A DNA stretch of 64,000 bases, taken from Erysipelotrichaceae bacterium (GTDB taxonomy: Bacteria > Bacillota_I > Bacilli_A > Erysipelotrichales > Erysipelotrichaceae). A model generated the notes under the pieces. That model had not been told where the DNA came from. It was given only the letters and a program-made list of their open reading frames with translations, and made no database searches. The DNA lies in the NCBI GenBank assembly GCA_017442805.1, contig JAFRZA010000025.1, positions 1 through 64,000 on the forward strand, written 5' to 3'. The position numbers and the translations under genes are program-made. Every line of letters begins with the position of its first letter. Positions within the stretch are counted from its first letter, which is position 1. Below are positions 19,184 to 26,411 of the stretch, one piece after another.

Positions 19184-19573
19184 TCAGTGCTGACTTTCCA
19201 GCATCTCAATGACGCCCGTGATCTTCTTCCAGCTGATCTTCTGCTTTTCCGTTTCCATCTGTTTCCGATAATCTTCATCGTTTTCGTAGAGACGGGAAAG
19301 GACATAGGCGTGATAGTAACGGCCGAAGGCTTCATACTGGGAAGCGTCGACCTTCAGTTCATCCTCGGCGTACCTGTTTGACAGGGTGTAGACATAAACC
19401 TTGTGGTATTCACCGTTGCTGAAGGCTTCGTCCAGTTCGCTGAGACCATAGCTGCGGTTTCCATAACTGACATCCTTGCGGATCTCCACAAACAGCGCCA
19501 GGGCGTTGAAGAACAGCACGATGGCGAAGAATACGATGGCTATCCGGGCCAGTGATTTCCATTTACTTTTCAT
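19184..19573 (-). CDS. Single-pass membrane protein of unknown function
   Basis: 129 residues. One hydrophobic segment at about residues 8-28 (IAIVFFAIVLFFNALALFVE), then a charged, Tyr-rich domain predicted outside or peripheral. I do not recognise a family. The start overlaps the upstream zinc-ribbon gene by 11 bases, so it is the third gene of a three-gene transcript with it and the next zinc-ribbon protein. Confidence 0.7.
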   Translation of the reverse strand: MKSKWKSLARIAIVFFAIVLFFNALALFVEIRKDVSYGNRSYGLSELDEAFSNGEYHKVYVYTLSNRYAEDELKVDASQYEAFGRYYHAYVLSRLYENDEDYRKQMETEKQKISWKKITGVIEMLESQH

Positions 19574-20282
19574 AGCCTAACCTCTCATTCATGAGTATCA
19601 GCAGCGCTGATGAACTCAGATCACTGATTTTGGCGATGTCTTCATCAGTAAAATTCAGATATACCTTAAGCACCCTGTTGACTTCGTCATTGATCTTCTC
19701 AGCATAGCCGGTCATTTCTATGCTGAGTTCTCTGGACTGCGCATATCCGTAGCTTTCCTTGAACTCACCGATGTTCTGACAGAGTCTGACCAGCGGATCT
19801 TCATAGTTACTGGTACCGTAATAATAGTTATTCACGCTTTCCAGGATCCTGCTGTAGCTGTCAGCCAGTGACTCTATCGTCAGATAATCACGGTACTTCG
19901 CGTATGAGAGAATGAACTTGTCGGTAAAGACCTTGAATTCAATGAATTCGCCCTTTTTGAGAAGTTCATCCATTCTGGCGGTTATCTCTTCGTCAGACAT
20001 CCGGGAAGCGATGATCCTTTCGGCAATCTCATAGCTGGCAGAGTGCAGAGGAACCAGGATCAGATTGGCCAGTAACAGGATCGCCAGAATGACCAGCAGC
20101 GAATAGCCGCTTCTGACTTTCCTTACTTCCTCCCTGACTTCGTTTCGGGCGGATGCGTAATCCTTTTCCAGTTTCTTCAGTTTTCTGAGGTGTTCCTGAG
20201 CTTCCGGGTTAGGCGTTCCGCAATGCGGACATACGCTGTCCTTCAAAGTCAGGGGAGCGCCGCAGTTCTTACAGTTGACCAT
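19563..20282 (-). CDS. Zinc-ribbon membrane protein, unknown function
   Basis: 239 residues. An N-terminal zinc ribbon (CKNCG ... CPHCG, residues 4-22), a charged helix, one membrane segment around residues 60-80 (LLVILAILLLANLILVPL) and a C-terminal helical domain. The layout matches its upstream neighbour (zinc ribbon, basic helix, one membrane span, helical domain), suggesting duplicated or partner proteins. Gap of 1 base to that neighbour. Confidence 0.8.
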   Translation of the reverse strand: MVNCKNCGAPLTLKDSVCPHCGTPNPEAQEHLRKLKKLEKDYASARNEVREEVRKVRSGYSLLVILAILLLANLILVPLHSASYEIAERIIASRMSDEEITARMDELLKKGEFIEFKVFTDKFILSYAKYRDYLTIESLADSYSRILESVNNYYYGTSNYEDPLVRLCQNIGEFKESYGYAQSRELSIEMTGYAEKINDEVNRVLKVYLNFTDEDIAKISDLSSSALLILMNERLGYEK

Positions 20283-20283
20283 C

Positions 20284-21006
20284 TTAATCCCCCTCTACAT
20301 ACTTTTCCAGGGCATCGGTATCGATATAACCCTGCTTATCGCTGTTTTGCTGGTAGATCGTCTTCAGCTGATCTTCGCTGAAGCCCTTCTCTTCAAGCAT
20401 TTCCAGGATCTTCTGCCGCTGCTGCTGATACTTCTCCATGTCAGCGCTTTTCATCCGGTCACGTCCGGTGAAATACTCCGGCCAGTACAGGTAGTACAGC
20501 ATCCTCTGCAGCTGATACTTGTTGAAGCGGGTATCGCCGCTTATCTGCTCGAATTCATCAGCCAGCGCATAATCAGGATAGTGGCTCCATTTCATGACGA
20601 CGGTTCCGTTTTCGTAATAGAGCTTCTTTATGGCCTTCAGATCGCCTTCACGGTAGTATTCTTCCAGCTTATCGATGTTGGCTTCATACCACTCGATGTT
20701 CTCCAGCGTCTTCTGGTCATACTCATAGTCATTGTGATAATTCACATTGAATCTAAGCGATATCAGATAAGCCGCCGCAACGATCACCGCCACGATGATC
20801 AGCGAGCGGATCAAAGCTGATACGATCGAGCGGCTGACCGACTGGTGCGCTTCCTGCTTCATTCCCAGCATCCGGTCAATGAATCCGGCGACTTTCTGGC
20901 GGAAGCCCTTATAGGCGCCTTTCTTGTTCATGGTTCCGCAATAGGGACAGTATTCCGTGTCTTCACTGTAGGCTGCCCCGCAGTTTTTGCATATTATTTC
21001 CTTCAT
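20284..21006 (-). CDS. Zinc-ribbon membrane protein, unknown function
   Basis: 240 residues. Zinc ribbon at the N-terminus (CKNCGAAYSEDTEYCPYCG), a basic linker, one membrane segment around residues 65-85 (ALIRSLIIVAVIVAAAYLIS) and a Tyr-rich helical C-terminal part. The ATG at 21006 has GGAG upstream; an in-frame start at 21042 lacks support. It has its own strong promoter, separate from the TPM-protein transcript above it. Confidence 0.8.
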   Translation of the reverse strand: MKEIICKNCGAAYSEDTEYCPYCGTMNKKGAYKGFRQKVAGFIDRMLGMKQEAHQSVSRSIVSALIRSLIIVAVIVAAAYLISLRFNVNYHNDYEYDQKTLENIEWYEANIDKLEEYYREGDLKAIKKLYYENGTVVMKWSHYPDYALADEFEQISGDTRFNKYQLQRMLYYLYWPEYFTGRDRMKSADMEKYQQQRQKILEMLEEKGFSEDQLKTIYQQNSDKQGYIDTDALEKYVEGD

Positions 21007-21057
21007 ATTCTCATTTCTCCGCTGAAAAAGTACCCATGGCATTTTCTAACCTGTTTT

Positions 21058-21162: not shown

Positions 21163-22248
21163 CTAGAATCCTCTTCGTCCGCCGCCGCCATGGGTAGCGC
21201 CGGATGATGAGGTGTGGGTCGAAGAACCGCCGGAGAATGATCCGCCGTGTCCTCCGCCGCCTGAAGAGCCTGAACTATGTGTTTCACGCGGCCGGGCCGT
21301 GCGGCTGGTCTTCGAATACATGTAATGATCGTGGTAATTGGTCAGATTGAAACTGCCCCTTTCCACATAGCGGTCGGCCTCGTACTTGCTGTGAACGGAC
21401 CTGTTCTTGGCCTTCATGATGCTGCATCCGATCAGCGCTGCCAGAATGCCGCTGCTGCTGGAAACGGCTCCGCCGGTGAGCAGATCATACGGTGCTCTTT
21501 CGGCTACCATGCTGATGTCGTATTCTTCGGAACCGCGTACGGTCACATCTGCCGGACGATTGTACTTATCGGTAATGTTATCGCACCTGATGACATATAC
21601 CGCGTTGGTATCTTCCGTTCCGATGTCAACATAACCTTCGCCGCGGTCAACATAAATCATGGTTATGTAGTCGCCGTTAGCGTCATAGACAGAGAAATGG
21701 CCGTTCAGGGGATTTCCCTTTTCGTCGTTCAGGTGAATGTAGAGACGGTTATAGTAGAAGTCGATCGGCTTGTCCGTGATAGCCGCATTGATGTACCGGT
21801 CACAGAGTTCGACGTATTTGGCTACAGCCACTTCAATATTGCCTGGCAGGAAAACATACACTTCATCAGCAATCGTTTCCAGACCGTAATCGGTAAAGTA
21901 GTCAATGCACTTTCCTCTGGTACTCAGATACATTTCCCGGCCGTTCATGTCAATGACCATGATTATTCCTGACCTCTCCGCTCCCCGGCCATAGCCGTTG
22001 TAGTCGAAGTAATCATCCGCAAAATCCACGATGTCCTTACCGTCGGTGTCAGCCGCGATGACGGCGATGACATCAACATCGTACTTGTCGCTGACCATCT
22101 GCAGCTGCTGCTGGCATATCTCCAGCCGCTCAGGTGCAAGTTCGCCGGTTTCATCAACGATCAGCGCGGTGTCTGCCGATGTACTGAGAGGCACGCTCAT
22201 CATAAACATCACTGCCAGGATGGTAAATAACTTAATAATTCTCTTCAT
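21163..22248 (-). CDS. TPM-domain secreted/membrane protein, YdjH-like
   Basis: 361 residues. A signal peptide at residues 1-25 (MKRIIKLFTILAVMFMMSVP), then a TPM fold (residues about 27-155) with LIVDETGELAPE, an extracellular stretch, a hydrophobic segment around residues 255-275, and a C-terminal tail of Gly, Ser and His. TPM proteins are membrane-linked and in B. subtilis YdjH works with YdjG and YdjI in placing PspA at the membrane. Here the neighbours are YdjG- and YdjI-like proteins, which supports the same role; no PspA gene is in view. Confidence 0.82.
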   Translation of the reverse strand: MKRIIKLFTILAVMFMMSVPLSTSADTALIVDETGELAPERLEICQQQLQMVSDKYDVDVIAVIAADTDGKDIVDFADDYFDYNGYGRGAERSGIIMVIDMNGREMYLSTRGKCIDYFTDYGLETIADEVYVFLPGNIEVAVAKYVELCDRYINAAITDKPIDFYYNRLYIHLNDEKGNPLNGHFSVYDANGDYITMIYVDRGEGYVDIGTEDTNAVYVIRCDNITDKYNRPADVTVRGSEEYDISMVAERAPYDLLTGGAVSSSSGILAALIGCSIMKAKNRSVHSKYEADRYVERGSFNLTNYHDHYMYSKTSRTARPRETHSSGSSGGGGHGGSFSGGSSTHTSSSGATHGGGGRRGF

Positions 22249-22260
22249 TGTCCTACCCTC

Positions 22261-23349
22261 CTAAAACAGTTTCAGCAGATATGTCGCCGCAAATACCAGT
22301 GCGCTTACCCCGGCCGCAATGATCGCAAAGTAGCGGGCATACAGACTGCCGTCGGTGGGCAGATCGCCGATCATCTTGCCGGTCTGACCGTTCATGGCAA
22401 AATAGTACTTCTTGCCGTTATAAGTCGTTACCAGCAGCCATACCGGCAGCAGGCAGTACTTGGCGTGTTCGCTTAAAAGCCGCATGTGCATGCCGGCTTC
22501 GCGCACGGATGTATAGCCGCTTACCGTTGATTCGATGGAGTTAGCCGTGGTGTTGCGGATGCGCTGGTTGGCCTTCTTGCCGCTTTCATCGGCGGTGATG
22601 TCGAATTTGTCGGCAAAATAGCCGGCCAGATAATTCATGTTGAAGTCAACCGCCTGACGCATGTCAAACGGCTCAATCGATTCCATCATCGCGGTATTCA
22701 TCTTGCTTGAGCCGTTGGCGGGAACATCATCAAAGCTGATGTCGCCATCGCGGAAGACATTGTAATACCGGGTTTCGGTATAGTCGTAATCATGGTCGGA
22801 CCAGCTTCTGGTCCTGGTGGCCACGTATCTGGCCTTGGCATGGACATCGGCGTCATACAGCCAGAAGGGGACGTAGACACCCTTGATCTCCTGCATGTGC
22901 TTTTCGGCCTTGAAGGCGGCCGGTGCCAGCGGCTTGTCCGAGACGTGTTCGCGGTACTTCTGAATGGCCTGCTGCTTGCTGAACTTGAAGGGGATGACCT
23001 TGTCAGGTCTTAAAGACCCCCTGAACTGATCGACCATGACGACGGGATTGCCGCAGTACGGACAGCTGGAAGCCGCAGTGGTTTCATCGGTAATGATGTC
23101 ACCACCGCAGCTCTTGCATACATACTCACGGATATTCTGCTTCTCCTGCTGACTCCATTCGCCATCGGGCTGGGCAGTCCAGCTGAGTTCGTTATTAACC
23201 GTTTCAGCAATATCCTCGTCATACTGCTTGATCATGTCAACGTCAAATTCAGAATGACAGAACGGGCATTTCAGATTCTGTGTAGATGAGTCGAATACCA
23301 GTATCCCACCGCAGTTAGGACATTTGTATTCCTTTAATCCATCACTCAT
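22261..23349 (-). CDS. TFIIB-type zinc-ribbon membrane protein, YdjG-like
   Basis: 362 residues. Two zinc ribbons (CPNCG ... CPFC at residues 10-33; CKSCG ... CPYC near 75-100), a long soluble domain containing PFWLYDADVHAKARY, and a C-terminal membrane segment (residues about 335-358). The family is common in Firmicutes, and YdjG of B. subtilis matches the layout. Spacing of 12 bases to the TPM gene. Confidence 0.82.
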   Translation of the reverse strand: MSDGLKEYKCPNCGGILVFDSSTQNLKCPFCHSEFDVDMIKQYDEDIAETVNNELSWTAQPDGEWSQQEKQNIREYVCKSCGGDIITDETTAASSCPYCGNPVVMVDQFRGSLRPDKVIPFKFSKQQAIQKYREHVSDKPLAPAAFKAEKHMQEIKGVYVPFWLYDADVHAKARYVATRTRSWSDHDYDYTETRYYNVFRDGDISFDDVPANGSSKMNTAMMESIEPFDMRQAVDFNMNYLAGYFADKFDITADESGKKANQRIRNTTANSIESTVSGYTSVREAGMHMRLLSEHAKYCLLPVWLLVTTYNGKKYYFAMNGQTGKMIGDLPTDGSLYARYFAIIAAGVSALVFAATYLLKLF

Positions 23350-23394: not shown

Positions 23395-24237
23395 CTAAAG
23401 CTTGTGTCCGCAGCTGGGACAGAACTTGGTGTCGGCGTCGGTTATCTTGGTTCCGCATTCCGGACAGAATCTGTTGACTTCCGCTACCGGCTTGGGTGCT
23501 CCGCAGGCACGGCAGAACTTGCCGCCTTCGTTCTTGGTTCCGCACTTCATGCAGTACCAGACTTCGACTTCTTCCTTCTTTTCCTCCTCTTCGGTGAATT
23601 CGACGCCGTTCTTGTAGTAGGCAAATTCCTTCCGCGGATCTTCCCAGCCTCTGCTAGTCAGCTTGGTGCAGATCTGATTGGCCATTTCGGCGTATTCCTT
23701 ATAGAGGTCGCTTTCCGGAGAAGTCGGTCTCTTTTCCGTCAGTTCGAAGTTCAGGTCATCGAAGAAGTCATTTCTGACCTGGATGCAGACATTGAACTTG
23801 TACTCGTATTCGTACTTGGGCGGATTGAAGGAGACCTTCTTGCCTTCGCTGTCCTCGTCGTACTGCTCATCAACATCCTCGTCAACCGTGATCTTGACGC
23901 CCAGGACATCGCTGTAGCTGATCATGTCCGGATTGGCGCTGCGGAAGTTGGATGAGGCGGATACCAGGACCTTCTTGAGATTGTCGTCGAAGTAGACCTT
24001 ATATCTCTTGCCGATGATTTCCGTGGGGGCAAAGTTCTTCAGAGCGGACTCATTGGCCTCTCTGTACTGCAGCTGCTGCTTGATGGCAGCTACGGAAGTA
24101 TGTCTTCTGCCGGTAAACCAGGGAGAAAGCTTGGAGGCGCAGTCCTTGCACATGTTGCCGTCATCAAGCTTGCGGTTACCCAGCAGTTTGATTTCCTTAC
24201 CGCAGATGTCGCAGTATTTCTTATCGAATAAACCCAT
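23395..24237 (-). CDS. DUF4428-like protein with C-terminal double zinc ribbon
   Basis: 280 residues. An N-terminal four-Cys unit (CDICG ... CKDC) followed by WFTGRR is the DUF4428 type; a middle domain (residues 60-215) has beta-rich, charged sequence; the C-terminus carries two zinc ribbons (CMKCG ... CRACG; CPECG ... CPSCG). No enzyme motif is seen, so an adaptor role is plausible. It lies 11 bases downstream of the SPFH gene, so they are co-transcribed. Confidence 0.8.
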   Translation of the reverse strand: MGLFDKKYCDICGKEIKLLGNRKLDDGNMCKDCASKLSPWFTGRRHTSVAAIKQQLQYREANESALKNFAPTEIIGKRYKVYFDDNLKKVLVSASSNFRSANPDMISYSDVLGVKITVDEDVDEQYDEDSEGKKVSFNPPKYEYEYKFNVCIQVRNDFFDDLNFELTEKRPTSPESDLYKEYAEMANQICTKLTSRGWEDPRKEFAYYKNGVEFTEEEEKKEEVEVWYCMKCGTKNEGGKFCRACGAPKPVAEVNRFCPECGTKITDADTKFCPSCGHKL

Positions 24238-25394: not shown

Positions 25395-26321
25395 TTACTG
25401 ATAGATCCGGGAGAAATACTCCCTGATCTCATTTCTTTCGATGCGCTCATCGATCTTCTTATTGGCGCAGGGCGGCTCGCTCTTACAGATGGACACCAGC
25501 AGAAGCAGTTCCAGCTGCCCATAGGACTCAATGACCGTATCGGCAATCTTGTGCAGGCCATTGCTGAGGTAAACCTCATCGTTTTCCTCCAGACGCTCCT
25601 TTCTGCCGTATTCGTGGCTGATCTCGGGAACATACGGGCCCAGTTTGCCCAGGTAGATGTCATTGGTGAAGGCGCTGCGCTGATAGATACACAGTGAGAG
25701 TGCTTCGACGAAGTACAAAAGCAGCTGCAGCTTGGCCGGGGTGATCATCACCGTCTCGACATCAAGCCAGTCATACTGATGGTTGTACTTCTTGATCATG
25801 TAGCGAGCGACGTCCAGAACACTGGTAGCCGTCAGGGTGAGATTGGTGAATTCGCTCATCTCGAAGCGGGCGATACGGTTACGCTGCAGTTTCTGCAGTT
25901 CCCTGACCGTATCCATCAGCCTGACGAAGTTCTCCTCTCTGAAGCAGTCGCGGTTGTTGTTGAGAAGTTTGTACATGTCATTGGCGTCCGCGCTCAGACG
26001 CATGATCTCATCATCGGCGTAGGACTGAATGCTGCCCTTTTCAAAGCGGTGGACGGTGATCTCGCCGAAACCAAGAGCCAGGGCATATTCCTTCTGAGTC
26101 ATCTGATAACGGCTGCGGATGTCCTTGATGTCCTGAGAAGTCAGCAGACCCTTCAGTTTCTTATAGCTTTCAATCATGCTGGCGCGGTTTTCCGCGACGA
26201 ATTCCTTGAGGTAGACCTCTTCATGACTGGCCGGATCAAAAGCATACTTCTCGTCGTACTCAACCAGTTCGTTACGGAACAGCTTGCTGGATTTTCTGAT
26301 TCTGATCTCGTAGTCAGGCAT
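25395..26321 (-). CDS. HTH regulator with C-terminal Panacea (SocA/DUF4065) domain
   Basis: 308 residues. Residues about 62-110 hold a Xre/MqsA-like helix-turn-helix (RYQMTQKEYALALGFGEITV, then HRFEKGS). Residues about 165-250 hold the Panacea pattern: KLQLLLYFVEALSLCIYQRS, then GPYVPEISHEYG. Panacea domains are antitoxins that neutralise diverse toxins, but no toxin gene is adjacent. It is 60 bases upstream of the SPFH gene with no terminator, so it probably heads that operon. The inverted repeats upstream suggest it controls itself. Confidence 0.8.
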   Translation of the reverse strand: MPDYEIRIRKSSKLFRNELVEYDEKYAFDPASHEEVYLKEFVAENRASMIESYKKLKGLLTSQDIKDIRSRYQMTQKEYALALGFGEITVHRFEKGSIQSYADDEIMRLSADANDMYKLLNNNRDCFREENFVRLMDTVRELQKLQRNRIARFEMSEFTNLTLTATSVLDVARYMIKKYNHQYDWLDVETVMITPAKLQLLLYFVEALSLCIYQRSAFTNDIYLGKLGPYVPEISHEYGRKERLEENDEVYLSNGLHKIADTVIESYGQLELLLLVSICKSEPPCANKKIDERIERNEIREYFSRIYQ

Positions 26322-26346
26322 TCGATCACCTCACTTTACTGATTTT

Positions 26347-26374
26347 ATTATAGTTTCTTAACAAAAATTATCAA
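26347..26374 (-). promoter_or_regulatory. Promoter of the Panacea-SPFH operon
   Basis: -35 TTGATA (26369-26374), 16-base spacer, -10 TATAAT (26347-26352). The -35 lies inside the proximal arm of the large inverted repeat, so a bound protein would block it. Confidence 0.75.
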
Positions 26375-26411
26375 GTGATAGCCGTCTTAAAACTATCAAT
26401 TGATAATTTTT
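26363..26411. promoter_or_regulatory. Paired palindromes, likely operator of the HTH-Panacea regulator
   Basis: Two 19-base arms (26363-26381 and 26393-26411) are inverted repeats of each other with one mismatch, 11 bases apart. Each arm is itself a palindrome: TATCAATTGATA (perfect) and TATCAAGTGATA (one mismatch). That is four half-sites, fitting two dimers. Placement over the -35 implies repression. Inference: the operon's own HTH protein binds here. Confidence 0.65.

Follow-up and report, generated by a model that had tools for sequence, protein, structure and literature searches.

The window, which is the whole 64,000-nt stretch of DNA analysed, carries on its minus strand a gene for an HTH-Panacea regulator. 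Two palindromes lie over the promoter of this gene, and it is followed by a set of genes for an SPFH protein, zinc-ribbon proteins and a TPM-domain protein. The features are, from the promoter onwards:

26363-26381 and 26393-26411: inverted arms of 19 nt each, 95% complementary
26394-26405: predicted distal operator, the exact palindrome TATCAATTGATA
26369-26380: predicted proximal operator, TATCAAGTGATA (minus strand TATCACTTGATA), whose right half is the -35 hexamer
26347-26374, minus strand: promoter, TTGATA (26374-26369), 16-nt spacer, TATAAT (26352-26347)
25395-26321, minus strand: HTH-Panacea regulator gene, 308 aa
24249-25334, minus strand: SPFH (Band_7_1) protein, YdjI-like; PF13421, E 8.6e-18; in 7/7 genus loci
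23395-24237, minus strand: DUF4428/double zinc-ribbon protein; PF14471, E 1.3e-15; in 7/7 genus loci
22261-23349, minus strand: TFIIB-type zinc-ribbon protein, YdjG-like by domain content; PF08271; in 7/7 genus loci
21163-22248, minus strand: TPM-domain protein; PF04536, E 1.3e-18; in 7/7 genus loci
20284-21042 and 19563-20282 (together 19563-21042), minus strand: two more zinc-ribbon proteins, a possible extension of the operon

The regulator is organized into a metal-free remnant of the MqsA zinc domain (residues ~1-50), an MqsA-type HTH (~60-105), a linker and a Panacea domain (198-282 by Pfam). The joining of an HTH to a Panacea domain, proposed in a preliminary description of this DNA, was recovered by profile searches. 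The N-terminal half matches TIGR03830 with an E value of 2e-15 (56.7 bits, cut-off 61.8) and the orthologue in genome G123 reaches 66.6 bits, so that the HTH is assigned by sequence to the MqsA type. Residues 198-282 match SocA_Panacea (PF13274) with an E value of 7.8e-5 and 24.0 bits by hmmscan (cut-off 25.7), and a genome-wide search gave 25.9 bits, which passes the same cut-off; membership of the Panacea family is borderline. Scores for this domain are weak across the genus, at 18-24 bits against the cut-off of 25.7, and the genome-wide profile search found no second Panacea protein in the 1.8 Mb assembly. The two cysteine pairs of the N-terminal zinc-binding domain of MqsA are absent from 7/7 genus proteins. 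A sequence search against solved structures returned a marginal match to MqsA, and the predicted structure of the regulator, built from three sequences only, has a mean pLDDT of 51.7 and is unusable over the Panacea domain (~30-45). An N-terminal HTH is nothing out of the ordinary for this family, since HTH-Panacea fusions have already been described (PMC8832971, PMC10440598).

Two 19-base palindromic arms lying over a strong -35 had also been reported. Both arms are present and the promoter matches 11 of 12 consensus positions; the second palindrome, TATCAAGTGATA, is one base pair from perfect, and the proximal arm alone overlaps the -35. As for recurrence of the palindrome elsewhere in the genome, TATCANNTGATA is found in the 1.8 Mb assembly solely at the two promoter sites, and this search of the assembly revealed no further targets of the regulator in the source genome. 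With at most 2 mismatches allowed, the palindromic 12-mer has 2 hits in the window versus 2.4 expected, so that as a loose motif it does not stand out there. In anatomy alone, the region resembles that of MqsA in placing a putative palindromic operator over the regulator's own promoter.

In the source genome, the SPFH gene begins 60 nt downstream of the regulator, and on the minus strand this gap contains no other promoter-like site and no terminator-like site. The regulator and the SPFH operon are predicted to be co-transcribed across it. The same 60 nt could be read to mean that the regulator controls itself alone, the SPFH genes being mere neighbours with a promoter of their own. This is highly improbable given the lack of a promoter-like site in the gap, a gene order shared by all seven genomes at protein identities as low as 34%, and the 10-17 nt that separate the regulator from the next gene in five species. 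By domain content, as opposed to direct comparison with the Bacillus proteins, the operon products appear to be counterparts of YdjG, YdjH and YdjI, and an SPFH protein, a TFIIB-type ribbon and a TPM domain are combined in one predicted operon as in pspA-ydjGHI. No match to PspA (PF04012) was obtained in 7/7 genus genomes by a search that detects the PspA proteins of B. subtilis and E. coli. The zinc-ribbon genes at 19563-21042 have no matching counterparts at the other genus loci and are confined to the source genome. PADLOC returned no match for the regulator, SPFH, DUF4428 and TPM proteins and weak zinc-ribbon-type hits for one protein; assignment to a known defence system was rejected.

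A full-length regulator orthologue is encoded in all seven available genomes of the genus, whose members are gut bacteria, the other six being 34-83% identical to the source protein. The SPFH, DUF4428/zinc-ribbon, TFIIB-ribbon and TPM genes lie downstream of it in each, and its other flank has the same methyltransferase gene close by. The tie between regulator and SPFH operon that had been suspected is borne out by this invariant upstream position (7/7). A mobile element was rejected as an explanation, since the locus has no close phage or plasmid relatives and keeps the methyltransferase gene nearby in 7/7 genomes.

In five species, a gene for a 5′-nucleotidase-like protein is inserted between the regulator and SPFH and starts 10-17 nt past the regulator stop codon; it is missing from the operon in G000 and G140. 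Such a gene precedes SPFH in G127 as well as in the five species of the source genus, and in G069 (locus L110, 4.5 kb before SPFH) three tandem copies lie directly upstream of SPFH. The nucleotidase was rejected as a fixed partner, being absent from the G000 and G140 operons and adjoining SPFH without the regulator elsewhere. A related proposal is that the locus encodes a new toxin-antitoxin-like pair, in which one of the operon products (SPFH, TPM, zinc-ribbon or nucleotidase-like) is harmful and is neutralised through binding by the Panacea domain. Panacea antitoxins swap partners frequently (PMC8832971), and the close spacing of the nucleotidase gene in five species would fit such a pair. 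However, 2/7 species lack the nucleotidase in the operon, and the SPFH-type operon is present in many other genera of the family, with no adjoining HTH-Panacea gene in the loci examined. Since the operon and the nucleotidase occur in many genera without an HTH-Panacea protein, no antidote seems to be needed, which makes this proposal quite improbable.

The double palindrome is as constant as the genes. Two TATC-N4-GATA sites occur at each regulator promoter in 7/7 genus loci, 25 bp apart (26 in G140), always with the -35 inside the proximal site; the genes immediately upstream of the seven promoters differ, yet the double palindrome is kept. Across 315 genomes of the order (7 of the genus and 308 others), the paired pattern is found exactly once per genus genome (7/7), always at the regulator promoter, and in 6/308 of the others, where a reversed control pattern is found in 4/308. 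The G140 genome also carries a lone TTATCAATTGATAA at position ~1560 of locus L166 (G140:C26:7058-7071), ~200 nt upstream of a gene for a 203-aa predicted membrane protein; this could be a second target in that species or a chance occurrence.

No toxin gene was found at the locus, as had been claimed, among ORFs of at least 60 aa in the window or at least 40 aa in two relatives. Alignment of the toxin against all seven genomes gave no relative in the genus, and a leave-one-out profile, which recovers each of the MqsR-like proteins of G294, G467 and G321 at an E value of 1.2e-12 or better, found none in the seven genus neighbourhoods; the absence is as firm as the sensitivity of these searches and the draft state of the genomes (80-99% complete) allow. 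The genus loci have neither the adjacent toxin of a two- or three-gene PanA locus, which the outside relatives do have, nor, in 7/7 cases, an MqsR gene directly upstream, as MqsA has. The three closest homologues outside the genus are found in the same family (G294) and in two other families of the class (G467 and G321). They are full-length, likewise lack the zinc-finger cysteines and have clear Panacea domains (53-76 bits). Each lies directly behind a gene of 101-106 aa with similarity to MqsR_toxin (E 2.4e-5 in G294, 5.2e-6 in G321 and a weaker 0.023 in G467). More distant homologues keep the zinc finger and are mostly also located behind an MqsR-like gene. The tree places the genus in one clade (support 100/98) and joins this clade to the three toxin-linked homologues (96/93).

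Linkage to a toxin in relatives had been named as evidence against a regulator. It is seen outside the genus (G294, G467, G321) and not within it, and does not overturn the regulator reading: comparison of sequence and gene order shows that the regulator derives from the antitoxin of a predicted MqsR-like/MqsA-Panacea toxin-antitoxin module. In the simplest history, such a module would have come to precede the SPFH operon, and its toxin gene would have disappeared in the ancestor of the genus. This would have left the antitoxin, together with its own operator and promoter, at the head of a chromosomal operon for SPFH, zinc-ribbon and TPM proteins. Separately, genome G022 contains a zinc-finger HTH-Panacea gene (L058:1435-2475) with no adjoining toxin gene and two TATC-N4-GATA sites upstream, flanked by a lipoprotein gene on one side and a membrane-protein-like gene on the other; this is perhaps a second, independent toxin-less regulator.

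The operator sequence is also found beyond the genus. In G294, G467 and G321 the toxin promoter contains TATCAATTGATA, and in 10/10 loci of the clade (seven genus and three toxin-linked) the right half of one site is the -35 TTGATA. A -10 element with at least 5/6 matches follows TTGATA by 16-18 nt in all ten, as compared with 5% of background positions. Of the 23 HTH-Panacea loci examined outside the genus, 13 carry TATC-N4-GATA in the 150 nt preceding the first gene, where shuffled sequences predict 0.15 and 2/200 control ORFs show it. The site accompanies the HTH whether the next gene encodes a toxin or SPFH, so the motif goes with the protein rather than with what lies downstream. TATCAATTGATA is probably a shared operator of the MqsR-like/MqsA-Panacea antitoxins of the class, and TATC-N4-GATA, mostly in the form TATCAATTGATA, is pointed to as an operator common to a large group of MqsA-Panacea antitoxins. 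No paper among those searched contains the operator string. MqsR-like loci with TATCAATTGATA upstream of the toxin gene include L057, L060, L066, L148, L149, L152, L108, L146 and L147.

Dimers of the HTH most likely bind both TATC-N4-GATA palindromes. Since the proximal site contains the -35 hexamer, binding there would shut the promoter off, and the operon would be negatively autoregulated; the overlap suggests repression. Type II modules are, as a rule, autorepressed. The alternative that the regulator activates the operon from the palindromes draws on the distal site: at ~60 bp before the probable transcription start, it stands where activators are known to bind. Activation is nonetheless unlikely: the whole -35 hexamer lies inside the proximal site, a promoter with 11/12 consensus positions would need no activator, and the same layout is found at the toxin promoters of close relatives. 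From these features we infer DNA binding, repression rather than activation, and, from what follows, a sensing role for the Panacea domain and a partner for it.

Whole-gene pairwise dN/dS is mostly 0.05-0.17 where synonymous sites are unsaturated, and the Panacea part gives 0.07-0.15; these values are rough, several pairs being saturated. The low ratio of the Panacea part means that the domain is not decaying, and by this measure the regulator, Panacea included, is under strong purifying selection. The domain has diverged all the same. Panacea identity is 45% among the three toxin-linked proteins and 31-34% between these and the genus, whereas HTH identity is 47-50% in both comparisons. The motif H-x-E-x-P-W is common to the three toxin-linked homologues, and its His and Trp are replaced in 7/7 genus proteins. 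In one Panacea antitoxin, a His in the conserved core is essential for neutralisation (PMC10440598); it probably occupies the same position as the His replaced in the genus.

These observations bear on whether the orphan antitoxin could serve as an anti-addiction guard against MqsR-like toxins carried by mobile elements, its position beside SPFH being incidental. Toxin-linked relatives do exist in the same family, and the gene is under purifying selection. Against a guard, the zinc domain that neutralises MqsR in a dissected relative (PMC10440598) has no cysteines in the genus, the Panacea domain has diverged with loss of the His and Trp, and both the operator and the linkage to the operon are invariant in 7/7 genomes; such a role is accordingly improbable. 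With its toxin lost, one genus-wide location, purifying selection and the operator kept, the gene has the expected attributes of a domesticated antitoxin.

The best explanation, which we regard as likely, is that an antitoxin was co-opted to repress its own promoter at the head of a YdjGHI-like envelope operon that lacks PspA, the Panacea domain probably being kept for sensing or partner binding. As selection has kept this domain without a toxin, its most likely role is to sense a signal or bind a partner and thereby relieve repression; the partner is possibly an operon product at the membrane. More tentatively, and with somewhat less than even chances, the Panacea domain might read the state of an SPFH/TPM membrane complex, or an activating cue, and free the HTH from the operators. 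If so, this would be the first Panacea protein known as a purely transcriptional sensor. The interpretation of the preliminary description is, overall, partly supported.

The study that dissected one ZBD-HTH-Panacea antitoxin assigned the neutralisation of MqsR to its zinc domain, HTH-Panacea and Panacea alone being inactive in this respect, and its authors favour a sensor role for Panacea (PMC10440598). A genus without toxin and without the neutralising zinc part but with Panacea is what the sensor idea would predict; a complication for the argument from the zinc part is that its zinc-binding cysteines are missing from the three closest toxin-linked homologues too. The genus offers a natural separation of functions, in which toxin and zinc finger are gone while HTH, operator and Panacea remain under selection, and it makes the sensor idea testable by a simple reporter. 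A sensing Panacea domain here would support the proposal of a Panacea sensor in toxin-antitoxin systems (PMC10440598), and a plausible regulator is offered for a PspA-less YdjGHI-like envelope operon.

The MqsR:PanA modules of Bacillus fungorum and Lactobacillus rossiae, with their ZBD-HTH-Panacea antitoxin, share the order of an MqsA-type HTH followed by Panacea, and their antitoxins are homologous to the toxin-linked relatives of the regulator (PMC10440598). In contrast, the regulator locus has no toxin gene and no zinc-binding cysteines, and an SPFH envelope operon lies next to it. MqsA of E. coli, also an HTH antitoxin, recognises a pair of palindromes in its operon promoter (PMC4894380), as is predicted for the regulator; whether MqsA globally regulates other genes is disputed (PMC6918082). 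The operators differ (AACCT-N-AGGTT for MqsA, TATC-N4-GATA here), and MqsA has a toxin and no Panacea domain, whereas the regulator has a Panacea domain and no toxin. The pspA-ydjGHI operon of B. subtilis, an envelope-stress operon, likewise encodes an SPFH (band 7) protein together with a TFIIB-ribbon membrane protein; its products assemble into a complex that acts in membrane stress (PMC8581546, PMC9239133). That operon is controlled by SigW and begins with pspA, while the genus operon begins with the HTH-Panacea gene, PspA not being found in the genus genomes. GndRX of Legionella (PMC12457610) is also derived from a toxin-antitoxin module, genus-wide and apparently in cellular use. Both of its genes persist and it functions under genotoxic stress, whereas here the antitoxin alone is retained and probably regulates an unrelated operon.
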